Origin: an uncultured Erysipelotrichaceae bacterium
Lineage (GTDB): Bacteria > Bacillota_I > Bacilli_A > Erysipelotrichales > Erysipelotrichaceae
Length of the DNA: 56,929 nt
Reading direction: 5' to 3'
Assembly: GCA_949744505.1 (NCBI GenBank)
Contig: CATJXY010000040.1
Span: 1-56,929 of the forward strand
Part shown: positions 1-39,173 of the stretch, in pieces
Position numbering within the stretch: the first letter of the stretch is position 1
Layout of the letters: every line of letters starts with the position of its first letter
Made by a program: the position numbers and the translations under genes
The notes under the pieces: generated by a model
The model's input: the letters and a program-made list of their open reading frames with translations, nothing else
Told to the model about the DNA's origin: nothing
The model's database searches: none

Positions 1-643
1 ATTTTATTGTCAAGCTTATGTTATAATTTCGTTTTTTTAGATTGTTAATTTACTATAGAAATTATTAACAAAATAATATCAGTCTAAATATCGATAAATT
101 ATTTCGTCATTTATAAGTAATAATATCTGCTTTTAGTTTTTTATAAAATATGACTATGAATTTAAAGAGAAGCCTATAGATTTATGATTATGAAAAAATA
201 TACACTTCTTTTAAATTATTCTCTATAGTAGTTAATGAATACATCAATCACTATAATTACAAGTGAATTAAATCGAAAACAAAATGGATGTTTCCTTCGA
301 TATACAAGGAAACATCCATTTGTTTAATTAAAATCAAATTTCGATATGTCTAGGATTTTGGATCCATATCAATAGAATAAAGTACCCTTTAAAGTTGCCA
401 CATATAAAAAATAAATGTACAATCCAAATTTATCAATATGAACACGTTGTTATCCAATCTGAAAGAGTTAAGGTTCATATTAGTAAAAAAACATTTTTCA
501 TAACATAGCAAATATGAAGCAGTGTATGTATTTCTACAAAACTGTAAACATGTACAGAATATTCTCTTTACGACGTTATAAACTCATATTCATAATTTTG
601 ATTAGACTATTTTATATGATAAATTCTGTATTGTTTTCCCCAT
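1..643. other. Intergenic region with no convincing gene
   Basis: No reading frame here has both a good ribosome binding site and recognisable protein content. The stretch is very AT-rich. The only clear structure is the long hairpin at 282-321. A TGTTATAAT extended -10-like string near 19-27 could be a promoter but has nothing convincing downstream. Confidence 0.6.
282..321. terminator. Long perfect hairpin, probable bidirectional terminator
   Basis: The 16-base arm AAATGGATGTTTCCTT (282-297) and its exact complement (306-321) enclose an 8-base loop. A single bulged base extends the stem by several A-T/C-G pairs. T-rich tracts follow on both strands (TTTGTTT on plus, TTTTGTTTT on minus). 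It lies 320 bases beyond the last gene of the minus-strand PTS operon and could end that transcript, or one arriving from the left. Confidence 0.65.
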
Positions 644-1252
644 TTATTCTCCTTCTCTTAATTTTCCTAATGAACCTCCCGGATGATATTGAATGTATTG
701 TTGTGGACTCATTTCTTTATAAGCTTGTAACATCACACTTAATTGTTGAAGAATGATCATCTCAACAAGAACAGAAGCTCTTGGTGCACGATTTAATGGA
801 CCACCCTCTTGCTCAACACCTGCAAATAAGTATACATCCGAAACTTTTGCTAGATAAGATTGATAATTACCTGTTACGCCAATAATCTTGCAACCATTTT
901 TTCTCAATGTTTTTACTGTTGCAATTAACTCCATAGTTTCTCCACTATTAGAAATACAAATAACAATATCTCCATTTTCACATTGCCCGCTCGAACCATG
1001 AACCGCTTCTGTACCATTTAAAAAATATGCAGGGGTTCCAACAGAAGACAACAAGGATGCAATATAAGTAGCAACATGACTCGGTTTTCCAATCCCCGTT
1101 ACATGTACACGCTTTTTATTTCTCTCTATATTTATAATCAAATTAACAGCCTTAATAAGTTCTTCATAGTTTATCTTATAATCCAAAAATCTTACGATTT
1201 CTCCTTTAACAATGTCAATATATTGTTCGTATGCTTGTTTACATCTTTCCAT
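644..1252 (-). CDS. SIS-domain phosphosugar isomerase (KdsD/GutQ-like, no CBS domains)
   Basis: This 202-residue protein has the sugar isomerase (SIS) fold. The phosphosugar-binding stretch VTGIGKPSH is near residues 51-59, ISNSGET near 100-106 and a GGSLG motif near the C-terminus. These resemble arabinose-5-phosphate isomerases of the KdsD/GutQ type, but the two C-terminal CBS domains are absent. An earlier in-frame start exists, but GGGAGG ends 7 bases before the ATG at 1252, so that start is chosen. It is the last gene of the PTS operon and probably isomerises a ketose/aldose phosphate derived from the imported sugar. The exact substrate cannot be read from sequence. Confidence 0.85.
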   Translation of the reverse strand: MERCKQAYEQYIDIVKGEIVRFLDYKINYEELIKAVNLIINIERNKKRVHVTGIGKPSHVATYIASLLSSVGTPAYFLNGTEAVHGSSGQCENGDIVICISNSGETMELIATVKTLRKNGCKIIGVTGNYQSYLAKVSDVYLFAGVEQEGGPLNRAPRASVLVEMIILQQLSVMLQAYKEMSPQQYIQYHPGGSLGKLREGE

Positions 1253-1333
1253 TCTTACCTCCCAAAACAAAAGTAAAACAGATTAATTACGTGTATTCAT
1301 TTTATTGTTACATTAAATTATAATCTATTTTAA

Positions 1334-1984
1334 CTAATGATCTTCATATATCCAATATTTCACTTTTGGCTCAACGAGTTTTCTCCAAAATTCTAAGCAT
1401 TTGCCAATCATAACAAAACATAATAATGTTCCTATTCCAATTTTACCATGAAGCAACATTGCAATAATTAACAACAAGCCATCAAGACTCCAGCGCACAT
1501 GTGAATACGGAATATTATATCTCTCGCTAACACCAACATTAAATGCATCAAGAGCTGTCAATCCTGTATTGGCACATATCAACAAATCACTTCCTAATGC
1601 TGTAACCCCAACAGCAAGAATAACCATGAAACATCTTATCCAAATACTCTCAAATTCCGGGAAATAATTAATAACCCAATCCACCGGCCATTTATTCAAT
1701 ATCAAAAACAAAAACGTAGATAATCCGATTTTAGTTTTATCAACATAGAAAGCCATAATCAAAAATACACAATTAGCAAAAAGAGAGATAGATCCTACAC
1801 TTAAATTAAACATCCTGCTTAGACATGTATAAACTGTTGCATTGGCTTCAGCGCCCAAATTTAGTTTCACAAGCATCCCCATTGCTACACTTAGGATAAG
1901 CACTCCAATCATACATACAATGTAGCGACGGTATAGGACTCGTTTTGTCTTCCTATACTTTTTAATTTTCAATAAATTTTTCAA
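1334..1984 (-). CDS. YczE/YyaS/YitT-type integral membrane protein
   Basis: The 216-residue protein has a basic N-terminus and about five or six hydrophobic segments (near residues 24-45, 58-78, 86-104, 112-136 and 170-195). The pattern GADLLxxANTGLTALDAFNVG-like around residues 127-150 resembles the YczE/YitT family of uncharacterised membrane proteins. The start is TTG, preceded by GGAGAAAAG; the first internal ATG would remove the basic leader. It follows the aldolase gene and precedes the sugar isomerase, so it is probably co-transcribed. A role as exporter or permease of a pathway product is inference only. Confidence 0.7.
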   Translation of the reverse strand: MKNLLKIKKYRKTKRVLYRRYIVCMIGVLILSVAMGMLVKLNLGAEANATVYTCLSRMFNLSVGSISLFANCVFLIMAFYVDKTKIGLSTFLFLILNKWPVDWVINYFPEFESIWIRCFMVILAVGVTALGSDLLICANTGLTALDAFNVGVSERYNIPYSHVRWSLDGLLLIIAMLLHGKIGIGTLLCFVMIGKCLEFWRKLVEPKVKYWIYEDH

Positions 1985-2053
1985 GGTATCTTTTCTCCAT
2001 TATCGAATAAACCCTTTTACATATATCTGTATATTCCATGTACTTGATCTAAC

Positions 2054-2959
2054 TTACTTTCGTATATTTGTGCATTTATATTGCTTCTCTATATGAAAAT
2101 ACATTAAAGCTTCTTCTATTTTCTCATCTACATTTGGTGTAATAATCGGTTTTCTTGCTTCTCCAACCGGTATTCCTGACAAAACCATAGCGCGCTTAAT
2201 AACAGAAGGCTGTGTCCCAAGTTTAATTACTTTCCGTAGTACATCAACATCCATTTGTGCTTGTATGGCTTGATCTATATTATCATCAAAATAAGATTCA
2301 TAAATGTCAACAACTGTTTTTCCGATTAAATTTGCACACCCTGCAATAGCCCCACTTACCCCCATTTTCAACGTTTCTAAAATTAAACCATCTGATCCAT
2401 CTAATACACAGAAATCTTTGTCTTTAGTCAACTCAACATATTGTCTCATATTTTCAATATTACCACTGCTATCTTTTACAGCCACAATATTTTTGATGTT
2501 TGCTAATTGAGCCACTGTTTGTGGATCAAGATTGTTTCCAGTAAACTTCGGAATATTATATAAAATCAAAGGTAAATCAACAGCAGCAGCAACTTCTTTA
2601 AAATATTCATATAATTCTTCTTGTGTAAGTATAGCATAGCTCGGAGTAATCACAGATAATGCATCAACTCCTAAGGCCTTCATTTCATTTGATAGCTTTA
2701 TTGTTTCTTGTGTGCTATTCAAACCACTTCCAGCATATACCGGAATCCGATGATTGACCCGTGTAACAACAGCATTAACCAATTCTTTTTTTTCTTCATT
2801 GGTCATCATATAAAATTCCCCATTCGTGCCTAGCAAAAATAAACCATGTACACCATCTGCAATAAGTTTTTCAGCTAAATCACACGCTACCTTACAGTCA
2901 ACATTTCCGTTTTCATCAAAAGGTGTAACCATTGGTACGATAATTCCATTTAAATTCAT
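2054..2959 (-). CDS. DapA-family (class I Schiff-base) aldolase/lyase, likely a 2-keto-3-deoxy sugar acid aldolase
   Basis: This 301-residue TIM-barrel protein has the family signature GTNGE (residues 44-48), the catalytic tyrosine in YNIP (Y134) and the Schiff-base lysine in VAVKD (K162). The arginine that dihydrodipicolinate synthases use to bind the pyruvyl carboxylate (YNxPxRTG) is Phe139 here (YNIPKFTG). This resembles N-acetylneuraminate lyase and keto-deoxygluconate aldolases rather than lysine biosynthesis. Its place in a PTS operon supports cleavage of a sugar-acid or amino-sugar-derived keto acid. The ribosome binding site GGAAGGAG lies in the end of the preceding TerD gene. Confidence 0.85.
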   Translation of the reverse strand: MNLNGIIVPMVTPFDENGNVDCKVACDLAEKLIADGVHGLFLLGTNGEFYMMTNEEKKELVNAVVTRVNHRIPVYAGSGLNSTQETIKLSNEMKALGVDALSVITPSYAILTQEELYEYFKEVAAAVDLPLILYNIPKFTGNNLDPQTVAQLANIKNIVAVKDSSGNIENMRQYVELTKDKDFCVLDGSDGLILETLKMGVSGAIAGCANLIGKTVVDIYESYFDDNIDQAIQAQMDVDVLRKVIKLGTQPSVIKRAMVLSGIPVGEARKPIITPNVDEKIEEALMYFHIEKQYKCTNIRK

Positions 2960-2963
2960 TTTA

Positions 2964-3479
2964 TTACTCCTTCCAAGTTTTCAATCCATAATAAGGCGTT
3001 AAATCCGAAATATTGGATTCAGTTCGATATAATTTTTTTGGCTCAAAAGCAACTGAATCTCTAAATGTGAGACATCCTAAGTCAATCGAATTTGCATCTT
3101 TTACAAAATTATCATAGAAATATGTGCCAATCTTATTTTCATCAACATATATATCAAGTTTTATCTCTTGAATTTCCGATAAATGAATTTCTCTTTTCTG
3201 TGCTTCATACACAGATAATAATATTTCTATTTCATTGAAACATTGCGGTAATTTATAAGGATAAATCTTAAAGTTTTCCTCATAATCCAATAATTCTTTT
3301 TCCTTATTTAAACGATGAACAGCACCACTTCGATGGTGATGTAAATTATAAAAAACAATATCATATCGTCTTGGTAAAAAATGATTTTCATCTAATATCA
3401 ATAAAAATACATCTGCATCAAAACAATCATGCTCTTCTTTTAATTTCCAACTAACTTCTATTTTTATCTCTTTATTCAT
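2964..3479 (-). CDS. TerD-domain protein (tellurium/stress family), isolated copy
   Basis: The frame can be extended upstream into ridA, but the natural start is the ATG at 3479, 17 bases after the ridA stop, giving 171 residues. FDADVFLLILDEN, DIVFYN and SGAVHRL match the core of TerD/TerE proteins, a calcium-binding beta-sandwich family. The C-terminal LGCLTFRD...KLYRTESN corresponds to the usual GELYR region. Several family acidic ligands appear altered, and no other ter gene is nearby. TerD proteins are linked to stress tolerance, but a single copy within a sugar operon is unusual. Its job here is unknown. Confidence 0.7.
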   Translation of the reverse strand: MNKEIKIEVSWKLKEEHDCFDADVFLLILDENHFLPRRYDIVFYNLHHHRSGAVHRLNKEKELLDYEENFKIYPYKLPQCFNEIEILLSVYEAQKREIHLSEIQEIKLDIYVDENKIGTYFYDNFVKDANSIDLGCLTFRDSVAFEPKKLYRTESNISDLTPYYGLKTWKE

Positions 3480-3496
3480 AATAACCACAACAATTT

Positions 3497-3874
3497 TTAC
3501 TTTCCAAATGCAATACATTCTATTTCGCAAAGAACACCACCCGGAAGTTCTTTTACCGCCACACATACCCGTGCCGGTTTTGATGTAAAGTATTTTTTGT
3601 AAACTTCATTAAATGCAGATGCGTTCGACATATCAGTTAAATAACAAGTTGTTTTTGCGACATCACTAAAATCCAATCCAATACTTTCTAGCATGGATGC
3701 AATATTTTTGCATACTTGTTCTGACTGTTCAGTTATGTTTTCACCAACATTTTGTTTTGTTTCATAATTTTTTGGTGTTTGGCCGGATATAAAATATAGA
3801 TTTCCAGCTTGCACAACTTGTGTTAATGGACTGGTTGCACTTGATGTATATTTTGTTCTTGGATATTTCAGCAT
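3497..3874 (-). CDS. RidA/YjgF/TdcF-family enamine/imine deaminase
   Basis: The 125-residue length is typical. The family motif with the active-site arginine is seen as PARVCVAVKELP (Arg near 102), followed by the ECIAFGK-type C-terminus. RidA proteins form trimers that hydrolyse reactive enamine/imine intermediates released by PLP-dependent dehydratases and some flavin oxidases. The start overlaps the end of the upstream flavoprotein gene by 7 bases, which indicates translational coupling. This suggests that an amino-group-containing substrate is deaminated in the pathway, although no PLP enzyme is encoded in the operon. Confidence 0.9.
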   Translation of the reverse strand: MLKYPRTKYTSSATSPLTQVVQAGNLYFISGQTPKNYETKQNVGENITEQSEQVCKNIASMLESIGLDFSDVAKTTCYLTDMSNASAFNEVYKKYFTSKPARVCVAVKELPGGVLCEIECIAFGK

Positions 3875-4503
3875 TCTTTCTCTCCCTTCCGTGCTTTTTC
3901 AAAAGCTTCCTCTATTTTTCTAGTAAATAAATCTGTATAATCATGCCGTTCATCATTAAATGGAAGATTGTAAACATCTGGAAAAGATACATCTTCCAAT
4001 GTTCTGACAGGATTTTCGCTTTTTCCAACCACATGGTTCCAATCACATTCAATCAAATAAAGATCCATAAACATCATATGTGGTACAGAAAAATCATTTG
4101 GTTGACGATGATTATGTTTTAAGATTAATTGAAATCCTTCACCGAATAGCTTTGGATCTTGCTTTTTATCGATCAAACGAATTTTCCCTCTTGCCATGAT
4201 ACTTCGGAAATCATGATTCGTATGCATATAATGCTTATCTGGATAGTTTGAAAATGTACTGAACGTTGCAGAAACATTTGGATTTTTATTCCATAAATCA
4301 ACTTTATGCCCTTCTTTTGCACAATGAACATAAATTTTTAGAAATTCTTTTTCTATTTTATAGCCAAAATTCATGGGTACTACATATGGATATTCATGAT
4401 CGAATACACCAACATGGACTATGGAAATCATATCGAATATAGCAGAAAGAAGCTCATGATCAAATATTGCTTTTTCATACCTTCTCATTGGAATATCAAG
4501 CAT
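3868..4503 (-). CDS. Pyridoxamine 5'-phosphate oxidase-like (NimA-type) flavin-binding protein
   Basis: The 211-residue protein has the split-barrel pattern of PNPOx-like flavoproteins. YPYVVPMNFGY comes early (about residues 39-49), followed by IYVHCAKEGHKVDLWNKNPNVSATF and a MARGKIRLI strand. The motif HCAKEGHKxD is typical of the NimA/nitroimidazole resistance-like group, which binds FMN or haem. It is not a canonical PdxH. It overlaps ridA and follows the IID gene after a strong intercistronic hairpin. A flavin-dependent oxidation feeding RidA would be consistent, but this is inference. Confidence 0.8.
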   Translation of the reverse strand: MLDIPMRRYEKAIFDHELLSAIFDMISIVHVGVFDHEYPYVVPMNFGYKIEKEFLKIYVHCAKEGHKVDLWNKNPNVSATFSTFSNYPDKHYMHTNHDFRSIMARGKIRLIDKKQDPKLFGEGFQLILKHNHRQPNDFSVPHMMFMDLYLIECDWNHVVGKSENPVRTLEDVSFPDVYNLPFNDERHDYTDLFTRKIEEAFEKARKGEKEC

Positions 4504-4519
4504 AATTTTTCCTTTCTAT

Positions 4520-4552
4520 ATATCCGGATATCTGAATTTGATATCCGGATAT
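4520..4552 (-). promoter_or_regulatory. Intercistronic 13-bp hairpin made of two palindromic arms
   Basis: ATATCCGGATATC (4520-4532) and its exact complement (4540-4552) flank a 7-base loop, between the IID and PNPOx-like genes. Each arm also contains the palindrome ATATCCGGATAT. No T-run follows on the minus strand, so it is more likely an mRNA-stabilising or processing stem, or a pair of protein-binding sites, than a terminator. Confidence 0.65.
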
Positions 4553-4562
4553 GATTTATTTT

Positions 4563-5366
4563 TTAAACAATCTTCAAAAATGATAAAGCCAAACAGATAA
4601 TGATAATTAACATAATAGCTTTACCAACATTTGTTCCACGCTTTTTCATGTAGAAAAAGACTGCCCAAATTGTCAAAAGCGGTAATAGTCCAGGGAGAAT
4701 TGAATCAAATAATGCCTGCAATGTCTGTGCATTCTCTCCTACTGTCCATGAAATAGTTGTAGATAACTTTACATTTGATGCAGCCAAAGATCCCATCATA
4801 ATTAACCCTAAAGTACTCGCAGCATTTAAAATCGTATCCATGATTCCATTGGATAATAACCGTGTAATACCATCTTTACCAACTTTGTAACTGTACTTGG
4901 TAAAAACCCAACCCATAGCCCATTCTAAAATGGCTTGAGTCCATATAAAGAAGAAGCCAATCGGAGAACCCGTTGAACTCATTGCAATAGCAATTGGATA
5001 AAAAATTTGATTCAATGTTGATGCAACACTGTCTCCAATTCCGGCTAAAGGCCCCATTAATGCTGTTTTCACACTCGTAATTGCTTCTCCGGGAACATTT
5101 TCACCATTTGATTTTTCTTCTTCCATTGCAATACTGACACCTAAACATATACCTGCAAAATCACCTTGTGTGTTAAATAAAACCAAATGTCGTTGTAATG
5201 CGTCACGATACTCATCATCATTTGGATATAATTTTCTTAGTAGTGGTTGCATTGCATAGCAATATGAGGGAGTTTGCATTCTTGAATAAGAATTACAGAG
5301 TTCAACTGTCCACCACCAACGATTATAAACTTTACATAAATCTTTTGTTGTTACTTTTGTTTCCAT
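4563..5366 (-). CDS. PTS mannose/fructose/sorbose-family IID component
   Basis: This membrane subunit of a mannose-family PTS permease has an N-terminal RMQTPSYCYAM region, a VKTALMGPLAGIGDS motif near residues 108-122 that is diagnostic of IID, and a hydrophobic C-terminal anchor. An upstream extension of ten codons is possible, but AGGAGGAG lies 5 bases before the ATG at 5366, which gives 267 residues. The start follows the IIC stop by 11 bases. With IIC it forms the sugar channel; the phosphate comes from IIB. Confidence 0.95.
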   Translation of the reverse strand: METKVTTKDLCKVYNRWWWTVELCNSYSRMQTPSYCYAMQPLLRKLYPNDDEYRDALQRHLVLFNTQGDFAGICLGVSIAMEEEKSNGENVPGEAITSVKTALMGPLAGIGDSVASTLNQIFYPIAIAMSSTGSPIGFFFIWTQAILEWAMGWVFTKYSYKVGKDGITRLLSNGIMDTILNAASTLGLIMMGSLAASNVKLSTTISWTVGENAQTLQALFDSILPGLLPLLTIWAVFFYMKKRGTNVGKAIMLIIIICLALSFLKIV

Positions 5367-5376
5367 ACTTCTCCTC

Positions 5377-6177
5377 CTATTCATCTTCAGGTTCATTTAA
5401 AGTTGTTGTCAACTTAAATTTATTTAGCAATAATTTTTCTTTTTCCATATCTTTCAAAGTTACTGCAATCACAAACGGTATCGCAAATGCAGCCACATAA
5501 ATCGTTGACAATCCCATTAATTTAGTTGCAAAGAAACCAATGAAGAAAAATGGATATAATGATTTCTTACCAATAACAATTAATGTTAATGCAAACCCAA
5601 ATGCTGGTAATACTCCTCCGGCAACTGAGAAGCCATTCGTCACCCATGCCGGAAGATTATTTAAGATAAAATCAACCGCATCTGTTCCAAAATAGACCAA
5701 AGCAAAAGCAGTTGGGAATCGAAGGACGAAGTTTGTTAAAAATGTATATAACCAAACACATCGAGCAATTCCTTTATGATCTAATTCTTCAGCATGTTTA
5801 TCACATGCTGTAACCCAAAATCCATTAATGATACGACGTAACTGGTCAATGAATACTCCAATAACACTAAACGGAGTTGCAATAACAAGCGCCATTTCCG
5901 GACTCTGACCCGTTGCTAATGCAACTGGAATGGCCACTGCACTGGCAAGTCCGACATCTGATGGTAAATTTCCACCCACCACAACAATTCCCAAAAATGC
6001 TAATGTTAAATAACACCCCATAATCATTGCGTCTTGCATATTTCCCATTAGCAATCCGCATATAAAAGCCATTGTAAGTGGTCTTCTTACAATTGGAAAC
6101 ACACCATTCCCTAATCGCCACTGTCCTATCGTATAGACTAGTCCTGCTACGATAGCAATTAATAATTTATTTTCCAT
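5377..6177 (-). CDS. PTS mannose/fructose/sorbose-family IIC component
   Basis: The 266-residue polytopic membrane protein has features of the IIC (sorbose-type) family: GQWRLGNG near the start, MGNMQDAMIMG near residues 44-54 and a VGGNLPSDVGLASAVAIPVAL segment. It carries the substrate pathway together with IID. The order IIB-IIC-IID, with 11-base gaps and good ribosome binding sites, is the standard operon arrangement. Sequence alone does not reveal sugar specificity. Confidence 0.95.
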   Translation of the reverse strand: MENKLLIAIVAGLVYTIGQWRLGNGVFPIVRRPLTMAFICGLLMGNMQDAMIMGCYLTLAFLGIVVVGGNLPSDVGLASAVAIPVALATGQSPEMALVIATPFSVIGVFIDQLRRIINGFWVTACDKHAEELDHKGIARCVWLYTFLTNFVLRFPTAFALVYFGTDAVDFILNNLPAWVTNGFSVAGGVLPAFGFALTLIVIGKKSLYPFFFIGFFATKLMGLSTIYVAAFAIPFVIAVTLKDMEKEKLLLNKFKLTTTLNEPEDE

Positions 6178-6188
6178 AACATACCCTC

Positions 6189-6683
6189 CTATTTTTTACC
6201 ATAAATTTGTATTAAGTCAGAATACTCTGTTTTCTTCAAATCCGGTGTTAACTGTGCAAATACCGAAATATTCAAATCATGAATCTTACGAATGCAAGAC
6301 ATATCCTCTTCATTCACAAAAGTTCCCGCCACCAACATCACTTTATCATTAGTTTTCGGCATAATACCTAAATTGATAAACGGCACTTTTAATCCACGCT
6401 CTAACACACGCAAACAACTCTGCGGATCTTTGAATAAAATCATAACATTTCCTTCTTTAAACTGATTCATTTCCCAAAATTTAATTGCTGTATCCTCATC
6501 ATAAATTTTTACAATAATATCAGACGGAGCCGCAGATAATAAAACTTGTGATACAAATGAATCATTCTTCAGTTCATTATTGATAACAATAATTTTGGTT
6601 ACTGAGTAGAATTTTCTCCATTGTGTTACAGTTTGACCATGAAGTAAACGATTATCAATTCTTGCCATAACAATATCAGCCAT
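6189..6683 (-). CDS. PTS mannose/fructose/sorbose-family IIB component
   Basis: The 164-residue cytoplasmic phosphocarrier has the phosphorylated histidine in IDNRLLHGQTV (His15). The family motif for phosphosugar transfer sits in the rest of the single domain. Its strong Shine-Dalgarno (GGAAAGGAG, 6713-6721) is separated from the ATG by a small hairpin at 6695-6712. A 155-base gap with another hairpin separates it from the upstream IIA gene. It is adjacent to IIC and IID and is therefore their likely direct phosphate donor. Confidence 0.95.
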   Translation of the reverse strand: MADIVMARIDNRLLHGQTVTQWRKFYSVTKIIVINNELKNDSFVSQVLLSAAPSDIIVKIYDEDTAIKFWEMNQFKEGNVMILFKDPQSCLRVLERGLKVPFINLGIMPKTNDKVMLVAGTFVNEEDMSCIRKIHDLNISVFAQLTPDLKKTEYSDLIQIYGKK

Positions 6684-6694
6684 TCTTCATTTCT

Positions 6695-6712
6695 ACATAT
6701 CAATAGATATGT
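6695..6712 (-). promoter_or_regulatory. Hairpin between Shine-Dalgarno and start codon of the IIB gene
   Basis: ACATATC (6695-6701) and GATATGT (6706-6712) form a 7-bp stem with a 4-base loop. It lies between the best ribosome binding sequence (6713-6721) and the ATG at 6683. Folding would shorten the otherwise too-long spacing. Whether it regulates translation is inference. Confidence 0.45.
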
Positions 6713-6739
6713 TCTCCTTTCCTTTGGGTAGTTCACTGT

Positions 6740-6779
6740 ATTGTCAGAATGTATATGCTGCTCTACTACTTCTGACAAT
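6740..6779 (-). promoter_or_regulatory. 10-bp intercistronic stem between IIA and IIB genes
   Basis: ATTGTCAGAA (6740-6749) and its exact complement TTCTGACAAT (6770-6779) enclose a 20-base loop in the 155-base gap of the operon. There is no following T-run on the minus strand, which argues against a simple terminator. It may set different RNA levels for the upstream IIA/IIB pair and the downstream IIB-IIC-IID genes. Confidence 0.5.
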
Positions 6780-6838
6780 TTTATAAGAAAATATAACCCA
6801 ATTAATAAATTTTCTTATTTCATACAATTTTAGTTATT

Positions 6839-7237
6839 TTATAAATGAAATTCATCTCTAACAACTATAATGCCATTTCTTGTATCTATACATAACTTTT
6901 TTTTCATATCAGCCAATGATTTTGTATCTCTCAGCTCACAAGCCTCGATCAACATCGGAAGATTAACTCCTGTTAGAACTTCGACATTTTGATTCTTCAA
7001 ATATGACGAACATACATTAAAAGGACTACCTCCAATAATATCTGTCAGAATCAAGATGCCATTTCCGTCATCCATTTCTTCAATTTTCTCATTCACATGT
7101 TCCTTAAGCAAAGTTACTTCATCTTCCGGTCTTAGTGATAACGCCTCACATTTCTTCTGTGCACCCGTTATCATTGTGAGTGAATTAATAAGCTCTTTTC
7201 CAAAATAGCCATGTGTTACTACTAATATCCCTATCAT
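6839..7237 (-). CDS. PTS mannose-family IIA component
   Basis: The 132-residue IIA(Man) domain has the phosphohistidine in ILVVTHGYFG (His9), the characteristic DDGNGILILTDIIGGSPFNV block near residues 57-75 and a GVNLPMLIEA segment near 89-98. It accepts phosphate from HPr and passes it to IIB. It is the closest IIA to the IIB-IIC-IID genes of the operon and is probably their regular partner. Spacing to the upstream IIB paralogue is about 100 bases. Confidence 0.95.
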   Translation of the reverse strand: MIGILVVTHGYFGKELINSLTMITGAQKKCEALSLRPEDEVTLLKEHVNEKIEEMDDGNGILILTDIIGGSPFNVCSSYLKNQNVEVLTGVNLPMLIEACELRDTKSLADMKKKLCIDTRNGIIVVRDEFHL

Positions 7238-7340
7238 TTGTCCTCCTTTCTTTTGACACTTTTATCTTCCATCATCATTCGTGTCATAAATCATGAATCT
7301 ACCATTCTTTTCTTCTTGCAGCATTTAAGAAAAAAGTACA

Positions 7341-7790
7341 TCAACAATCCGCATATATTTCAATCATAGTCTTTTTATTTTCCGGATATACTTGTGCACT
7401 AACAAGCACACCTCTAGTCAAAATCTCATTCACTGCTTGTTTATATTCTTTCGGAATTTTAATTTTTTTGCTCATATATCTTTTATCCGCTAAAGACACT
7501 TCATCTACAAAGATTCCACTTTTAATAAGTTGCAACGCTTCAACAGGTGTTGCACAAAGTAATAAAACATCATCCTTGTATTTTTGTAATTTTTTTTGTG
7601 CTTCATCAATCTTACAGACCTCTACATCAATCCAAAGTGGGACAAGTGATTTATACACATTTGTCATAAATACATCGTTTGCAACTCGATTATCTGCAAT
7701 CAACAATTTTGAAAAATTATAATATTTGCACCATTCGTTAATTAATTTATCATGAATAAGGCGCTCATCACTCCTCATCAACAATTTCAT
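7341..7790 (-). CDS. Second PTS mannose-family IIB component
   Basis: The 149-residue IIB paralogue has its histidine in DERLIHDKL (His13), in place of the usual RLIHGQ. The glycine-glutamine that follows the active histidine in the other two IIB proteins of the window is replaced by Asp-Lys. The start overlaps the end of the upstream IIA gene by 23 bases. It is clearly diverged from the IIB at 6189-6683. It may serve another permease or a regulatory phosphorelay rather than the adjacent IIC/IID. Confidence 0.85.
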   Translation of the reverse strand: MKLLMRSDERLIHDKLINEWCKYYNFSKLLIADNRVANDVFMTNVYKSLVPLWIDVEVCKIDEAQKKLQKYKDDVLLLCATPVEALQLIKSGIFVDEVSLADKRYMSKKIKIPKEYKQAVNEILTRGVLVSAQVYPENKKTMIEIYADC

Positions 7791-8196
7791 ATAGTGCTCT
7801 CCTTTTAATTGACTCAGTGTCCATTAATTCTTCTTTCGCATACCATAAAGATTTTTCAATTGCATCTTTAGCCGTCAAACAATATGTATCATTTAATTTC
7901 ATCAAAAGAGGAATATTTATTCCTGTAAGATGATAGAAATCATAATCTTTCATAAGCTGCATCACAATATTAAACGGTGTCCCTAATTTCACATCTGTTA
8001 ATACGATTACTTCTCCTTTATCCATAAGTTGAATGATCTTTTCTCGTATCATGTCAATATAGTCACAAACTAAAGTTTCCTCGTTGATACAAATTGTATG
8101 AACCTCAATTTTCAAATAACATAATGCATATAATGACTTCTTCATCTCATCTGCGAGATAACCATGCGTAATCAGCAATAATGAATACATTTTCAT
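7768..8196 (-). CDS. Second PTS mannose-family IIA component, first gene of the operon
   Basis: The 142-residue IIA-like protein keeps the phosphohistidine in LLITHGYLAD (His11) and the family pattern VIVLTDVKLGTPFNIV, where most IIA proteins have GGSPFN. It is the promoter-proximal gene, preceded by AAAGGAG, with a cre site about 30 bases upstream. Together with the overlapping IIB paralogue it forms a IIA-IIB cassette placed in front of a complete IIA-IIB-IIC-IID set. Divergence at the GGSPFN position hints at a specialised or regulatory role. Confidence 0.85.
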   Translation of the reverse strand: MKMYSLLLITHGYLADEMKKSLYALCYLKIEVHTICINEETLVCDYIDMIREKIIQLMDKGEVIVLTDVKLGTPFNIVMQLMKDYDFYHLTGINIPLLMKLNDTYCLTAKDAIEKSLWYAKEELMDTESIKRRALYEIVDEE

Positions 8197-8223
8197 TTTC
8201 TCCTTTCTATGTTATAATAAGAA

Positions 8224-8237
8224 TGTAAACGTTATCA
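8224..8237. promoter_or_regulatory. Perfect CcpA-binding cre site upstream of the PTS operon
   Basis: TGTAAACGTTATCA matches the consensus TGWAANCGNTNWCA at every position. It lies 28 bases upstream of the first PTS gene, beside a TATTATAAC -10-like sequence, so bound CcpA would block the operon promoter. This indicates carbon catabolite repression of the operon by preferred sugars. Confidence 0.8.
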
Positions 8238-8255
8238 TAATTTATATTGTTAGTA

Positions 8256-8273
8256 TATATCAATTTTGATATA
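8256..8273. promoter_or_regulatory. Inverted repeat in the HxlR/PTS divergent region, possible operator
   Basis: TATATCAA and TTGATATA flank a 2-base centre. The site lies between the cre site and the HxlR gene and could be the binding site of that regulator. The arms are AT-rich, so chance is not excluded. Confidence 0.4.
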
Positions 8274-8282
8274 AAAAAATAA

Positions 8283-8298
8283 GGCACTTTCAAGTGCC
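8283..8298. promoter_or_regulatory. GC-richer palindrome before the HxlR gene, operator or minus-strand terminator
   Basis: GGCACTT and AAGTGCC face each other across two bases immediately before the HxlR ribosome binding site. Read on the minus strand, it is a 6-bp stem with a 4-base loop followed by TTATTTTTTTA, which is a plausible terminator for transcripts coming from the decayed region at 8750-9350. Either reading is possible. Confidence 0.45.
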
Positions 8299-8311
8299 CA
8301 TGGAGAATATA

Positions 8312-8656
8312 ATGAAAAACAGAACTACACTTACCGGGCTAGATATCATAAAATGTATTATTGGTGATAAATGGAAATTTTTGATTGTCTTTCATTTGTT
8401 TCAAGGTTCTTTACGTTATGGAGAACTTCTATTTTATGTTGACTCAATTACAAAAAAAGTTCTAACAGATAATCTGAAAGAACTTGAAAACTTACATATA
8501 TTGACAAAAACCAAAATTATCGAACAAAACAAACAAATCGCTATTTATACGCTTACTGATATCGGAATATCCTTAAAACCTCTATTTAGTGCTTTAGTGG
8601 AATGGGGAGTAAATTATCAAAATGAATACAAAATCATTCAAAAAGATAACATATAA
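8312..8656 (+). CDS. HxlR-family winged-helix transcriptional regulator
   Basis: The 114-residue protein has the HxlR pattern: IIGDKWKFLIVFHLFQGSLRYGEL near the start, LTDNLKELENLHIL as recognition helix region and a YTLTDIGISL wing. A GTG start six codons earlier is possible, but GGAGAA sits 6 bases before the ATG at 8312. The usual HxlR cysteine near the N-terminus is absent; the only similar residue is Cys in KCIIGDKW. It is divergent from the PTS operon, which makes it a candidate local regulator of that operon. Its inducer is unknown. Confidence 0.8.
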   Translation: MKNRTTLTGLDIIKCIIGDKWKFLIVFHLFQGSLRYGELLFYVDSITKKVLTDNLKELENLHILTKTKIIEQNKQIAIYTLTDIGISLKPLFSALVEWGVNYQNEYKIIQKDNI

Positions 8657-8753
8657 TTTTTCATACAAATTGTTCATTTATAAGTATTTTCAAATTATAA
8701 AAATAGAAAAAATGTTCTACTTATAAGAGATCGAGCAGAATATAAAATGGAAT

Positions 8754-8990
8754 TTATGGTTTAAATCTTATATACTTATCAATAAACTCATCATATAATT
8801 CTTTAAATATTTTATTAAACATCTTCATATTTTTTGGTATTTTTAAAACGGAATGACCGGCAATATCTTCATCTGTTTCTGAACATAAAATTATACTAAC
8901 TGTAAAGTTATCACCTTCTATACGTTTTAACTCATCATAATTCTTACATACATATCCATTTGCCCTACATCCCGATGAGTGATTCTGTTT
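8754..8990 (-). pseudogene. Frameshifted C-terminal fragment of a DUF1016/YhcG PD-(D/E)XK nuclease
   Basis: Translated on the minus strand, the fragment reads THRDVGQMDMYVR and then, after a one-base frameshift near 8940, YDELKRIEGDN...IILCSETDEDIA. This matches the conserved C-terminal core of DUF1016 (YhcG) nucleases, which normally continues GQLDMYVRMYDELKR. No N-terminal domain is present and the tail diverges before a stop at 8754. It is a relic of a mobile or defence-associated gene. Confidence 0.7.
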
Positions 8991-8992
8991 GT

Positions 8993-9085
8993 TTATAAAT
9001 CAATGATGTATCTTAAAGCAGAAACAATATCATCTGTATTCTCAACTTCAATAAAATTATTTGCTCTTATTATATTATCATTCAT
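8993..9085 (-). other. Short 30-codon reading frame within decayed region
   Basis: An ATG at 9085 opens 30 codons ending in TDDIVSALRYIIDL. It lies between the two gene remnants, in AT-rich DNA. I do not recognise it and there is no strong ribosome binding site. It may be another fragment of the accessory module. Confidence 0.2.
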
Positions 9086-9090
9086 CAACT

Positions 9091-9348
9091 TTAGTCTTTA
9101 CTTTTAATGTAATACCCACCATCTCTCGATGAACCTATAAATTCAACCAATTTCAATTTTCTTAATTTGAATAGAACATTATTTATTGAACTCTCTTTTA
9201 ATCCACATATTTCACTTAATGCAGGAATTCTTAATCACGGATTATTTAAAATAGTATCATAAACAATTTGTTGATTTGTAGGTAACTTTATTATTTCAGT
9301 TTGCAACAGTTTATTATATTTATCCTCGTTTTCTTTATTGATATACAT
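9091..9348 (-). pseudogene. Winged-helix C-terminal remnant interrupted by an in-frame TGA
   Basis: Starting at the ATG at 9348 the frame reads LPTNQQIVYDTILNNP, then TGA at 9235-9237, then IPALSEICGLKESSINNVLFKLRKL and SSRDGGYYIKS. This is a helix-turn-helix and wing of the type found at the C-terminus of AlbA_2/ATP-binding transcriptional regulators. The stop in the middle, and the absence of an N-terminal domain upstream, mark it as a relic. It sits directly beside the DUF1016 fragment. Confidence 0.55.
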
Positions 9349-9442
9349 AATGACTTATGTATAATCATCTGTTTCATTATCTGGTAAAAACACTGGTGAA
9401 TCATTACCATTTTCTTTGCTGTTTTCGCTTCGCAATAAAAAA

Positions 9443-9471
9443 GGAACTACTAAGCTTTATTTAGTAATTCC
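9443..9471 (-). terminator. Rho-independent terminator of lysS
   Basis: On the minus strand GGAATTACTAA pairs with TTAGTAGTTCC (one mismatch) around a short loop, followed by TTTTTTATT. It lies about 105 bases beyond the lysS stop codon. Confidence 0.75.
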
Positions 9472-9575
9472 TATGTATTTTTAGTCAATTTCTAAAATGG
9501 TGTACTTTTGGTGTAAAATTCACTATCCATCAATCCAAAAAGCCTTTATTTAGGGCATTTAACCACATAAAATCT

Positions 9576-34844: not shown

Positions 34845-35975
34845 TTAAAGCATTTCTTCTCCATGAACATAAGTTTGGACAATCTTATAGTCTTTATCAT
34901 ATATCGCAAAATCTGCAATATATCCTTCTTTGATCAATCCCTTCTGATCGTCAATACCCAGTACACGTGCCGGATTAATTGTAGCAGCGTTAATTGCGGT
35001 TACAAGCGGAAGATCACCGATTTCCTGAAGATTTTTAACATTCTCGATCATTGTTTTCATGCTTCCGGCAATTTTACCATTAGGCATTCTTCCTACGCCA
35101 TCTTCACAAACTGTAATATCACGGACATCAGTACGGTAGAATCCCGGTTGCAAACCTTTCATGTTGGAAGAATCAGTAACTGTAATCAATCTGTCTTTTC
35201 CTTTCATTCTACCGACAAGATTCAATACTGCCGGATGAACATGAATTCCATCACACATTACTTCACTGAATACTTTATCATTTACCAAAGCAGCACCCGG
35301 AAGATGAGGATCTCTACTCATAAGTGGAGCCATACAGTTAAAACAATGTACTACATTGATTGCTCCCTCATCAATAGCTTGCATTGCTTCTTCATAGGAG
35401 CAACTTGTAAATCCTAAACATACCTTGATTCCGTTTGCAACACAATATTTAAGAACTTCATGATCTTTATCATGTTCCGGAGCCAAACTGATTGTCTTAA
35501 TTGTATTTCTTGAAAGAGCGATATATTCTTTCAAATGCTCAAGAGTTGGCTTTTGAAGCAAATATTTATCATATGTTCCACAATAATTATGATCCAAAAA
35601 TGGTGCCTGAAGGAAAGTACCATGAATTTCAGCCCCCTTCAAGTTCTCATCCTTAACATCTGCAATCGCCTGTAAAGAAGATTTAATTCTCTCTTCCACT
35701 CTTACCATAACACCCGGCAAAAATGTAGTAACACCTTCTTGAGGATAATATTTGACCCATCTTCTGATAACATCCGGATCTCCATCTGTCGAGCTTCCTC
35801 CGCCATATCCATGAGTATGAATATCAATCATACCCGGAATGATAAAGTTATCTCCATAATCTTTAGCATCTGATTTCTTACCCTTTGTAATCGATTTAAT
35901 TTTATCTCCATCAATCTCAATCGTAGCTGGCTCGAATTTTTCATCTAACCAAACATGATTACTTGTTATATACAT
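34845..35975 (-). CDS. nagA: N-acetylglucosamine-6-phosphate deacetylase
   Basis: The 376-residue amidohydrolase removes acetate from N-acetyl-hexosamine-6-phosphates. The metal-site motif is DIHTHGYGGG (near residue 51), with VVHCFNCMAP (near 210) and GIHVHP (near 245) providing histidines, and TVTDSSNMKG with the catalytic aspartate (near 272). In an operon with a mannose-family PTS and an SIS enzyme it points to import of an N-acetylated amino sugar, such as N-acetylgalactosamine or N-acetylglucosamine. Confidence 0.96.
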   Translation of the reverse strand: MYITSNHVWLDEKFEPATIEIDGDKIKSITKGKKSDAKDYGDNFIIPGMIDIHTHGYGGGSSTDGDPDVIRRWVKYYPQEGVTTFLPGVMVRVEERIKSSLQAIADVKDENLKGAEIHGTFLQAPFLDHNYCGTYDKYLLQKPTLEHLKEYIALSRNTIKTISLAPEHDKDHEVLKYCVANGIKVCLGFTSCSYEEAMQAIDEGAINVVHCFNCMAPLMSRDPHLPGAALVNDKVFSEVMCDGIHVHPAVLNLVGRMKGKDRLITVTDSSNMKGLQPGFYRTDVRDITVCEDGVGRMPNGKIAGSMKTMIENVKNLQEIGDLPLVTAINAATINPARVLGIDDQKGLIKEGYIADFAIYDKDYKIVQTYVHGEEML

Positions 35976-35989
35976 AATTCATTTCTCCT

Positions 35990-36472
35990 TTATTTTTTAT
36001 TAAGTAACGGCATGAATTCTTCTTTTGCTTCTGAAGGAATCATTTGTGTATAGAAAACGACACCTTGTGAGCTCAATGAATTAAATGCAGTTTCATCTTC
36101 CGATGTTACACAAACTGTTTTCTTAACTTGTCGTGTACCGGCTCCACCTGACATATTCGCAACATTGACCTCTTTTAGAGGGAAGCCTTTCTCCAATAAA
36201 TCCGTTAAAACTTCCGGACCTTTTACAATCACAAAGATGCGATCTCCTTCATATTTTCTGATCTTAATATTTTCAGTAGCAGTTTTTGTATCTAATATGC
36301 TTAGCTTTACTCCATTTGGACATGCCATTTTCAGCATTCTCTTTCTGAAATCATCCCGAATGATCTCATTATCTACAACCATAATACGGCTGACTTTCAA
36401 ATTTCCAGTCCACATTGCAGCTACTTGTCCATGAATAAGCCTCTCATCTATCCGAATATTAACAATCTCCAT
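35990..36472 (-). CDS. PTS mannose-family IIB component (amino-sugar operon)
   Basis: The 160-residue IIB protein has its phosphohistidine in RIDERLIHGQV (His14). It lies between the SIS enzyme and nagA, and so apart from its IIC and IID partners. It resembles the AgaB/sorbose group. Its IIA donor is not encoded in this operon. Confidence 0.95.
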   Translation of the reverse strand: MEIVNIRIDERLIHGQVAAMWTGNLKVSRIMVVDNEIIRDDFRKRMLKMACPNGVKLSILDTKTATENIKIRKYEGDRIFVIVKGPEVLTDLLEKGFPLKEVNVANMSGGAGTRQVKKTVCVTSEDETAFNSLSSQGVVFYTQMIPSEAKEEFMPLLNKK

Positions 36473-36481
36473 AATAACCTC

Positions 36482-37570
36482 CTATAATCCTACTTCTTTA
36501 CCAGTTTTAGGGGATTTGGAACTCATTCGATCAATAAAAGCCAAACGAGTTTCTTGAATTGGATTGACCCATTTTGCATTACCATTAGCCGCAACGGTCT
36601 GGAATGCAATGACATTGACCAATGTTGAAAAATGTTCGCTCAACTGGTGATCAATTGTCAAGACATGTCTATCCTCAATTTTTTTATTGGTAATTAAGAA
36701 GACATGCGGAGTCAAACTATGAAGCTCATGATAAAGTTTAACAGCTCGATCGGATGGATTTCCTAAAGAATCAATTACAAAAACTGTACGTTCATGATTT
36801 GTTTCAATATAAGGGCCATGCAAGAATTCTTCCATTTCCCAACCGGTTGAAGCTTTTCCCATTGTTTCTTCAATCTTCAATGCTCCCTCAAGCGCAACTC
36901 CATAGTTTGGACCATATCCTAATACTTGAACACGCTTGAAATCAGTGAGTTCTTCTTCATTATCGGCATACCACTTATTAGCCAAAGGGATTGCTTTTTC
37001 CATAACTGCAACCATTTCTCTTAGCTCTGACTTAATTGAATCATATTCTTCAGCAGAGATTCGTGAAGAGCCTAACGCTGCTTCAAGAGCGAATAAAATA
37101 TAGAATAGAACAGAAGTTGAATATCCTTTTGTTACAAATCCAATTTTTTCAATTCCCATTCCCCAGTTACAAATTACATCACAATTATCTTTCATGACAC
37201 TTTCAACATTTCCGGTCACACCGACCACTTTATGTCCATGTTCTTGAATACGTTTCATTGCATGATTTGTGTTCATACTTCTTCCACTTTGCCCCATTCC
37301 TACATAAAACGTATCTTGATCGAAAATCGTTTCATAATTTTCCATTGTAAATGAAGTGCATATTTCCACTTTCATCTTCAAAAGCTTCTCAATAAAGTAC
37401 TTTGCAGTTTGAGATCCGTTGAAAGAAGACCCGGAAGCGGTAATTTGAATACGCTTATAGTCTTTTTCCAAAAACGCATTAACAATATCTTTTGTTAATT
37501 CTTTTGAATTTTCAATATTTTCTAAACACTGTTTTGGGGTTTCATTGATATACTGAAACATTGTTTCCAT
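36482..37570 (-). CDS. SIS-domain sugar-phosphate isomerase/deaminase or deglycase (AgaS/FrlB-like)
   Basis: The 362-residue protein has two SIS domains: ASGSSFNGSQTAKYF (about 45-59) and MGQSGRSMNT in the first, then YGPNYGVALEGALKIEE and EFLHGPYIE (about 218-252) in the second, as in the isomerase half of GlmS. Without the glutaminase domain it fits AgaS (galactosamine-6-phosphate deaminase/isomerase) or fructosamine-6-phosphate deglycases. In an operon with nagA the amino-sugar role is favoured. Confidence 0.92.
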   Translation of the reverse strand: METMFQYINETPKQCLENIENSKELTKDIVNAFLEKDYKRIQITASGSSFNGSQTAKYFIEKLLKMKVEICTSFTMENYETIFDQDTFYVGMGQSGRSMNTNHAMKRIQEHGHKVVGVTGNVESVMKDNCDVICNWGMGIEKIGFVTKGYSTSVLFYILFALEAALGSSRISAEEYDSIKSELREMVAVMEKAIPLANKWYADNEEELTDFKRVQVLGYGPNYGVALEGALKIEETMGKASTGWEMEEFLHGPYIETNHERTVFVIDSLGNPSDRAVKLYHELHSLTPHVFLITNKKIEDRHVLTIDHQLSEHFSTLVNVIAFQTVAANGNAKWVNPIQETRLAFIDRMSSKSPKTGKEVGL

Positions 37571-37591
37571 AATTTTTTAGTTTCCTTTCTA

Positions 37592-38407
37592 TTAGACAAC
37601 CAAAATTCCGAAATAAGAAAGAAGAATGCTGACAACCATGACTGCAAAAATTAATCTTCCTGATTTCATACCGAATTTTCCTAAGAACCAGTAGCATATA
37701 ACTCCGGCAAGAGCAGATCCGATTTTAGGCATAATTGCATCCAATAATTGTGTTTGTAGATTAAATTCAATTCCCATCAAATTAATTGTTCCGAAATTTA
37801 CTTTAACCATTGTAGCAATCATTGATCCAATAACTGTAATTCCAAGGATGCTTCCTGCTTTTGTAAGCTTAGAAAGCTGATCACTCAATGTTGTCGTCAA
37901 TTTTAAACCTTGTTGATAACCCAACTTGCAAAGCCATGGTCTTAATACGAATGGCATAAATACAAGCCATGCAAACCAAATAATCGTTCCGACATAATTT
38001 CCTTCAAGACCCGTTGTCACAGCAATTGATCCGAAGATTACAGCAATAACACTTGAGAATAGAGTATCTCCGATTCCGGAGAATGGTCCCATTAAACTTG
38101 TCTTTACGGCTTGAACCATATCTAATCCTGCTTCACCTAATTCTTCTTGAACAGCAACATCCATCCCAAAAATAATATTTGCTAAATTTGTTTCACAGTT
38201 GAAGAATTGAGATTCAACTTCATATGCGTGTAAACGAGCATTTTCATCATCTTTATAAAGCTTATCCAAAGTAGGTGCAACAACTACTAAATATCCTGCT
38301 GCTTGCATTTTTTCATAGTTCCAAACCAAAGAACGGAATAATGTCCATCTGAATGAAAGCTTAAATAAGTCTTTATCACTGAATTTTTTTGATACTTCAT
38401 TACTCAT
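37592..38407 (-). CDS. PTS mannose-family IID component (amino-sugar operon)
   Basis: The 271-residue membrane subunit has SFRWTLFRSLVWNYEKMQAAGY-like N-terminal features and VKTSLMGPFSGIGDT, the IID hallmark, near residue 106. GGGAGGAAAC precedes the ATG at 38407, and the start overlaps the end of IIC by 8 bases. It pairs with IIC to form the permease. Confidence 0.95.
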   Translation of the reverse strand: MSNEVSKKFSDKDLFKLSFRWTLFRSLVWNYEKMQAAGYLVVVAPTLDKLYKDDENARLHAYEVESQFFNCETNLANIIFGMDVAVQEELGEAGLDMVQAVKTSLMGPFSGIGDTLFSSVIAVIFGSIAVTTGLEGNYVGTIIWFAWLVFMPFVLRPWLCKLGYQQGLKLTTTLSDQLSKLTKAGSILGITVIGSMIATMVKVNFGTINLMGIEFNLQTQLLDAIMPKIGSALAGVICYWFLGKFGMKSGRLIFAVMVVSILLSYFGILVV

Positions 38408-39173
38408 CGTAGTTTCCTCCCTCACTGTCCGCACTTATCTGTGTATTATTATTCTCCAAATTATATACAAAGAGTGCAATTGCTAATCCGATTGTCGCAA
38501 CTGCAATTGTGGAAGCTCCAAAATATGCAGATAGCACAAATCCAATAATTAAATATTGATAATTTCCTTTGAGTGGCATATATTTAAGCAATATTGTAAA
38601 TCCGATTACCGGGAAAATATTTGAAGCAATCTTTAATCCATTACTTAACCAAACAGGCATAATAGCATTCAATGTATCAACCAAGCTAGGACCAATCAAC
38701 AAACAAATCAATACCGGTGCAAGTCTTGTCAAAGACCAAGTAAAGATACCACATAGATAAACTTTCATAATACGGCTAAGATCCCCTGTTGGAACCAAAG
38801 CATCTACTTTATGTTGCCAATAACTGTTAATAATTCTTCCCAAAACATCCAATTGGACAGTTAAAGCAGCAACAGGAATACCTACTAGTGCAATTGTGGA
38901 AGCCACATTATCTAGACTTCCCCCACATAGTGCAACAACGATAATTGCAGCAACTTGATAGTTTGGAATTGAAGCTCCTCCAAAGTAATTAAGTCCGAGT
39001 GCATAAGATTGCAAAGTAGCACCCACAATTAAACCTAACGTTGGGTTTCCCATTACAATTCCTGCAAAAATACCTGTAATAATTGTATTGCTTGGCAACA
39101 ATGCGACTGTCATTACATCGACTTGTAATACTGCCGCCCACAAGCACAGTAGTATAATTTGAACTGGTGTCAT
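38400..39173 (-). CDS. PTS mannose-family IIC component (amino-sugar operon)
   Basis: The 257-residue polytopic IIC protein has IITGIFAGIVMGNPTLGLIVG near residues 31-50 and GGASIPNYQVAAI further on. It is the promoter-proximal gene of the operon IIC-IID-SIS-IIB-nagA. It starts with AAGGAGGAG. No IIA gene precedes or follows it. Confidence 0.95.
   Translation of the reverse strand: MTPVQIILLCLWAAVLQVDVMTVALLPSNTIITGIFAGIVMGNPTLGLIVGATLQSYALGLNYFGGASIPNYQVAAIIVVALCGGSLDNVASTIALVGIPVAALTVQLDVLGRIINSYWQHKVDALVPTGDLSRIMKVYLCGIFTWSLTRLAPVLICLLIGPSLVDTLNAIMPVWLSNGLKIASNIFPVIGFTILLKYMPLKGNYQYLIIGFVLSAYFGASTIAVATIGLAIALFVYNLENNNTQISADSEGGNYDE

Follow-up and report, generated by a model that had tools for sequence, protein, structure and literature searches.

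Which sugar does a phosphotransferase system (PTS) operon serve when it also encodes a flavoprotein, a RidA protein, a TerD-domain protein, an aldolase, a membrane protein and an isomerase, and which of these genes belong to its pathway? The question is raised by twelve same-strand open reading frames (ORFs) that run from position 8196 to position 644 on the minus strand of contig CATJXY010000040.1, from an uncultured Erysipelotrichaceae bacterium; the 56,929 nucleotides analyzed are called the window. In the analysis reported here, a PTS, a clade of DapA-family aldolases and a subfamily of SIS-domain isomerases form a conserved module of which the window operon is one variant. The Nim-like, RidA, TerD and YczE genes are additions seen in this genome only, and as an accessory set they are unique among the loci examined.

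The core of the operon and its relatives

The initial annotation described a twelve-gene operon, and this holds: each of the twelve ORFs is on the minus strand, at the coordinates first given, and Pfam and NCBIfam confirm the families (EIIB1, EIIB2 and EIIA2 by NCBIfam only). In gene order, with the aldolase assigned to the dihydrodipicolinate synthase (DHDPS) superfamily, they are:

7768..8196, minus strand: EIIA1, mannose-family PTS IIA, a divergent copy (Pfam EIIA-man, 1.6e-10); phosphorylatable His kept in an ITHGY motif
7341..7790, minus strand: EIIB1, mannose/sorbose-family PTS IIB (NCBIfam TIGR00854, 2.6e-17, below cut-off); His kept in an RLIH motif
6839..7237, minus strand: EIIA2, mannose-family PTS IIA (NCBIfam AgaF, 1.6e-28, and EIIA-man, 1.3e-23, both below cut-off)
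6189..6683, minus strand: EIIB2, mannose/sorbose-family PTS IIB (NCBIfam TIGR00854, 5.1e-26, below cut-off)
5377..6177, minus strand: EIIC, EII-Sor (Pfam, 4.1e-63)
4563..5396, minus strand: EIID, EIID-AGA (Pfam, 1.2e-81)
3868..4503, minus strand: Nim-like flavoprotein, Pyridox_ox_2 (Pfam, 1e-11; NCBIfam NimABCDEF, 2.6e-10, below cut-off; PDB 2fg9, 1.9e-11)
3497..3874, minus strand: RidA (Pfam, 1.1e-31; NCBIfam TIGR00004, over cut-off); arginine of PARVCV kept
2964..3479, minus strand: isolated, divergent TerD-domain protein (Pfam TerD, 6.7e-15; sole PF02342 match in the genome)
2054..2959, minus strand: DapA-family class I aldolase (Pfam, 6.2e-77); Phe replaces the DHDPS Arg
1334..1984, minus strand: YczE-like membrane protein (NCBIfam YczE, 1.2e-22, below cut-off; Pfam YitT_membrane, 4.1e-7)
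644..1252, minus strand: single-domain KpsF/KdsD-like SIS isomerase (Pfam SIS, 1.1e-17; NCBIfam KpsF, 2.4e-36; PDB 5uqi, 1.3e-28)

With EIIA, EIIB, EIIC and EIID all of the mannose/sorbose type, the transporter is a mannose-family PTS. Its closest EIIC and EIID kin within the order are 40-43% identical and lie mostly in PTS operons with a 6-phosphogluconate dehydrogenase and an M20 amidohydrolase. Because the closest EIID kin mostly sit beside 6-phosphogluconate dehydrogenase, the operon PTS is likely to be a sugar-acid importer. The gluconate-type mannose-family operons that hold these relatives (EIIABCD plus 6-phosphogluconate dehydrogenase; 40-43%) carry Gnd and the M20 amidohydrolase and, unlike the window operon, have no SIS-DapA pair.

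The aldolase reads YNIPKFTG where DHDPS reads YN.P.RTG, with Phe at the Arg138 equivalent, and by this motif does not qualify as a DHDPS; the alignment confirms the missing arginine reported in the initial annotation. The same Arg is absent from SIS-linked DapA relatives and kept (YN[IM]PARTG) in relatives from acid-sugar-kinase loci. In the DapA tree the window copy groups with the SIS-linked clade (support 77/94), a placement that points to membership of that clade and is not decisive. One further DHDPS-family gene in the genome (G000 contig 34:82792-83631; locus L177, 7775-8641) keeps the Arg (YNVPKRCS), which would leave the operon DapA free for another role. This separate homologue adjoins dipicolinate synthase-like genes, an arrangement that suggests a spore former.

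For the SIS protein the top PDB match is 5uqi (1.3e-28), which we take to be the arabinose 5-phosphate (A5P) isomerase c3406 of Escherichia coli CFT073. The KdsD A5P isomerase positions are all present, as K56, H85, E108, E149 and H190, and are invariant across 14 homologues; their counterparts Lys59/His88/Glu111/Glu152/His193 (KdsD numbering) are presumably the catalytic residues. The window-to-KdsD offset of 3 was taken from an alignment with 2xhz, where the Lys59 position reads Ala in what we assume to be a mutant structure. The window SIS thus carries the predicted catalytic residues of an A5P isomerase.

Neighbourhoods were drawn from a DapA search of the order and from a scan with the SIS alignment across every genome in the collection. 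The scan returned 80 loci; 51 SIS loci were tabulated. The DapA search yielded 13 Erysipelotrichaceae loci in which a DapA relative, a PTS and an SIS close to the window protein (48-63%) lie together. Loci that combine a PTS, with either an ascorbate-kind EIIC_GAT or a mannose-type EIIC/D, and DapA (type A; 25 after removal of duplicates) occur in many bacteria of gut and soil, across Erysipelotrichaceae, Clostridium, Enterococcus, Niallia, Saccharibacillus, Megamonas and Atopobiaceae. DapA is at least 40% identical to the window copy in every one of the 25 PTS-linked SIS loci, 12 of which came from the SIS scan alone. The window operon has all three elements: an SIS protein of this subfamily, a DapA that has lost the DHDPS Arg, and a PTS. 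The linkage of DapA and SIS to a PTS spans Bacillota and Actinomycetota, and it supports the initial annotation in so far as this proposed that a sugar acid is catabolized by way of a keto-deoxy acid aldolase and an isomerase of sugar phosphates.

Type A loci often add a KDPG/KHG (2-keto-3-deoxy-6-phosphogluconate/2-keto-4-hydroxyglutarate) aldolase (21/25) or a 2-hydroxyacid dehydrogenase (11/25), and transketolase and/or transaldolase accompany 5/25, as they do locus L092, which has no DapA. The KDPG aldolase, Eda, has no match in the window genome (98% complete); it is a common (21/25) but non-defining feature of the module. In Erysipelotrichaceae, Clostridium intestinale, Enterococcus phoeniculicola and Niallia circulans the loci hold orthologous-looking, PTS-linked SIS (48-63%) and DapA (43-53%) genes. 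They usually add Eda, PRD/PucR regulators, 2-hydroxyacid dehydrogenase or transketolase, and none has Nim, RidA, TerD, YczE or HxlR. A conjugative plasmid of Enterococcus lactis (L144, NZ_CP129888.1, 50407-56651) carries a type A operon with SIS-DapA-Eda and a PTS, so the module is mobile; the plasmid annotation lists PTS IIA/IIB, SIS, DapA, KDPG aldolase and a BglG-type regulator and names no pathway. Similar SIS genes were seen on other Enterococcus plasmids and on one Clostridioides plasmid.

A candidate pathway and its substrate

These assignments can be joined into a scheme. The mannose-family PTS would import and phosphorylate a sugar acid. Cleavage of the phosphorylated 2-keto-3-deoxy acid by the DapA-family aldolase would then yield pyruvate plus an aldose phosphate, most probably a pentose 5-phosphate (D-arabinose 5-phosphate, for example). 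From this the SIS protein would make a ketose phosphate, ribulose 5-phosphate, that enters the pentose-phosphate pathway. We put the chance that the whole scheme is right at about even: the gene content, the PTS-DapA-SIS linkage, the conservation of the catalytic positions and the exchange of PTS-type for kinase-type contexts are observed, while every reaction, and the substrate, is inferred. A site resembling a catabolite-responsive element (cre) over the promoter, the grouping of DapA with the SIS-linked clade and the separate DHDPS homologue count in its favour. So do the transketolase and transaldolase genes of five PTS loci; the window genome encodes a split transketolase, outside the operon.

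The substrate is the weakest link of the scheme. The most economical choice, and our leading candidate, is 3-deoxy-D-manno-octulosonic acid (KDO), whose 8-phosphate would give pyruvate and A5P. KDO is a sugar of lipopolysaccharide (LPS) and plant pectin, and is the natural ulosonic acid that yields D-arabinose and pyruvate.

Loci of a second kind (type B), with SIS and no PTS, can be fitted to the same idea. They number 21, all with a PfkB kinase beside SIS; 13 have an RbsD/FucU mutarotase and nine a distant DHDPS-family gene. Only the L063 kinase was scored, and it is ribokinase-like at 289 bits (cut-off 299.65). Three of the nine loci with a DHDPS-family gene were examined (L078, L081, L087), and they carry TRAP (tripartite ATP-independent periplasmic) or TctA acid transporters. 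Should the PTS phosphorylate its sugar during import, the aldolase product would already be a phosphorylated aldose, and neither kinase nor mutarotase would be needed; a free acid taken up by TRAP or TctA would instead release a free aldose, to be mutarotated and phosphorylated before the SIS step. The pairing of a pyranase of the RbsD type with a ribokinase-type enzyme fits a pentose phosphorylated at O5 and points to a pentose 5-phosphate. PTS and kinase never occur together in one SIS locus (Fisher p 7e-10, inflated since the types follow tree clades).

Taken to its full extent, the proposal is that the PTS-DapA-SIS module is a KDO catabolic pathway, in which KDO 8-phosphate formed at import would be cleaved by DapA to pyruvate and A5P and the latter converted by SIS to ribulose 5-phosphate, and that its second form would reach the same SIS step through an acid transporter, an aldolase, the RbsD/FucU mutarotase and a ribokinase-like enzyme. 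This we offer tentatively, and on balance think it unlikely. If true, gut and soil bacteria eat KDO, roughly reversing its synthesis, and there would be a testable pathway for a conserved PTS-aldolase-isomerase module of which the literature searched has no description. With KDO as the substrate it would be, to our knowledge, the first gene-level route by which this universal LPS sugar is used for food; it would also explain why Gram-positive bacteria without LPS encode proteins that resemble A5P isomerases.

Several observations weigh against the scheme or against KDO. Near the active site, the SIS subfamily has a loop that reads LNRAPRAS, where true A5P isomerases read LGLAPTSS, and the SIS tree places the window protein between the PTS-type and kinase-type clades, without firm support. 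The 77/94 support of the DapA grouping counts here as well. The PTS/kinase exclusion tracks clades, so its p value overstates it. KDPG/KHG aldolase (21 of 25 PTS loci) and 2-hydroxyacid dehydrogenase (11) would be superfluous in KDO breakdown. We found no paper on the module or on a gene-level KDO catabolic route in the openly licensed literature, which is weak evidence of absence, and nothing decisive in the literature on A5P isomerase operons.

The frequent aldolase and dehydrogenase additions speak for an alternative in which the substrate is a C6 aldonate or 2-keto-aldonate, as it is for gluconate and 2-ketogluconate PTS operons. DapA would then cut KDPG or 2-keto-3-deoxy-6-phosphogalactonate to pyruvate and glyceraldehyde 3-phosphate, and SIS would act in a side branch. 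That the nearest EIIC/EIID kin accompany 6-phosphogluconate dehydrogenase fits this alternative, as does the membership of archaeal KDPG aldolases in the DapA family, whose NCBIfam model NF040954 (archaeal-type KDPG aldolase) is matched by the window DapA. Glyceraldehyde 3-phosphate, however, needs no aldose-ketose isomerase, yet SIS is present in every module locus examined; the genome has no Eda match, and no Edd was recognized in the neighbourhoods read. We regard a C6 substrate as possible but unlikely.

Described operons were compared with this PTS-DapA-SIS arrangement, and the initial statement that it matches none of dga, gfr and aga is borne out, the defining genes of all three being missing. 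The dga (D-glucosaminate) operon likewise pairs a mannose-family PTS with keto-deoxy acid aldolase logic, but its pyridoxal phosphate (PLP)-dependent ammonia-lyase DgaE and Eda-type DgaF are missing from the window operon, and the genome has no Eda match. The gfr and aga operons share the mannose-family PTS; the GfrE/GfrF deglycases of the former are missing from the window operon, whose sole SIS protein is KpsF-like, as are AgaS and AgaA of the latter. Elsewhere in the window, at 34845-39173, a second mannose-family PTS operon (EIIB, EIIC, EIID) encodes a double-SIS protein and a NagA-kind amidohydrolase and is preceded by a GntR-like regulator gene; it looks more like the aga/gfr-type operons.

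In E. coli CFT073, c3405-c3410 encode a single-domain SIS isomerase, a PTS, a hydroxyacid dehydrogenase and a PRD regulator; c3406, the SIS protein, was reportedly identified as an A5P isomerase by Mosberg and colleagues in 2011. This operon was considered as an identical counterpart and was dropped, since no DapA gene appears in its annotation. Unlike the window operon, it is annotated with a MalY/PatB protein and just one EIIC gene, and its SIS protein (5uqi) has the A5P isomerase-type loop LGLAPSCS in place of the LN(K/R)(P/A)PRAS of the window subfamily.

Two further observations concern other SIS loci. Next to the DHDPS-family gene, TctA transporter, PfkB kinase and SIS of L087 lies a BNR sialidase-like gene (3702-4751), possibly a hydrolase that releases ulosonic acids. 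Phosphoglucomutase/phosphomannomutase-family genes, 53% identical to each other, lie by SIS in L076 (14057-15574), of the PTS type, and in L078 (10599-12128), of the kinase type, and such a phosphosugar mutase may be a further pathway enzyme.

The accessory genes

None of the 51 tabulated SIS loci has a Nim-like, RidA, TerD, YczE or HxlR gene or the first EIIA/EIIB pair. The initial annotation would have taken accessory genes unlinked to the PTS in other genomes as refuting its reading: this is what we find for Nim, RidA, TerD and YczE (0/51 loci), and not for DapA and SIS. It had also read RidA and the flavoprotein as signs of an imine or enamine intermediate in a catabolic route for an amino sugar or a sugar acid. 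On this view both proteins would be pathway enzymes and the substrate an amino sugar or its acid. RidA does retain its catalytic-type Arg, and Nim, RidA, TerD and DapA are tightly coupled (a 7-bp overlap and gaps of 17 and 4 bp), close enough that co-transcription of Nim-RidA-TerD with DapA is likely. Nonetheless, by Pfam and NCBIfam the operon has no PLP-dependent ammonia-lyase or deaminase, the accessory genes recur in none of the SIS loci, and the nearest Nim-like relatives, 35-41% identical, lie in unrelated neighbourhoods with no PTS linkage. No relative of the Nim-like protein came up in a genome-wide scan. The amino-sugar inference is thus unsupported, and we consider an imine route very unlikely.

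Another possibility, compatible with the PTS-DapA-SIS scheme for the core, is that a standard PTS-DapA-SIS operon has received Nim-like, RidA and TerD, with HxlR, as an inserted cassette for stress or detoxification, directed against electrophiles or reactive carbonyls. HxlR regulators frequently sense aldehydes or electrophiles, and the RidA, Nim and TerD families are each stress-linked; moreover, the core is found elsewhere without the accessory genes. TerD-domain genes (PF02342) occur in only 3 of 196 genomes of the order, and the other two hold three copies close together, so that a lone TerD is rare. The tellurite ter cluster comprises several Ter genes together, unlike the single TerD here. 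On the other hand, no cassette of this kind turned up outside the operon, and a protein search for relatives of the window TerD (whose start is better set at 3479) gave none in 316 genomes of the order, 392 of the phylum or all PLSDB plasmids. Its structure model, made with no alignment, is of low confidence (mean pLDDT 47, mostly strands). We therefore hold an inserted cassette to be possible but doubtful, and a protective role of the accessory genes against reactive carbonyls to be a guess. TerD is rarely seen within a catabolic operon, and the Nim-RidA-TerD insertion is one such case.

Boundaries and control signals

The spacing is close, but the tightness throughout that was described initially does not hold; two gaps reach 103 and 155 bp. 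From the coordinates, the gaps (bp) are -23 (EIIA1/EIIB1), 103 (EIIB1/EIIA2), 155 (EIIA2/EIIB2), 11 (EIIB2/EIIC), -20 (EIIC/EIID), 59 (EIID/Nim), -7 (Nim/RidA), 17 (RidA/TerD), 4 (TerD/DapA), 69 (DapA/YczE) and 81 (YczE/SIS), a range of -23 to 155 with the closest packing in Nim-RidA-TerD-DapA. No terminator-like site was found within the operon on the minus strand. The features around it are:

8294..8656, plus strand: divergent HxlR-family regulator gene (Pfam HxlR, 5.8e-21)
8299-8282, minus strand: upstream terminator-like hairpin, upstream of the promoter-like site
8234..8263, minus strand: promoter-like site TTGATA-18-TATGAT, upstream of EIIA1
8223..8238, minus strand: cre-like operator overlapping the -10; a perfect WTGNAANCGNWWNCAW match on the plus strand, one mismatch on the minus strand
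282..321, minus strand: downstream terminator-like hairpin of 16 pairs, found on both strands

Perfect WTGNAANCGNWWNCAW matches number two in the 57 kb, the operon site being one. A single transcript under catabolite regulation is plausible for the twelve genes, and HxlR is a candidate local regulator. In the EIID/Nim-like gap (4519..4553) lies a perfect 14-bp inverted repeat with self-palindromic arms (ATATCCGGATAT) and no T run after it on the operon strand; it may be an mRNA processing or stabilizing element, or an operator. Between HxlR and lysS, at 8700-9480, are seemingly broken minus-strand coding remnants, probably of a decayed gene.

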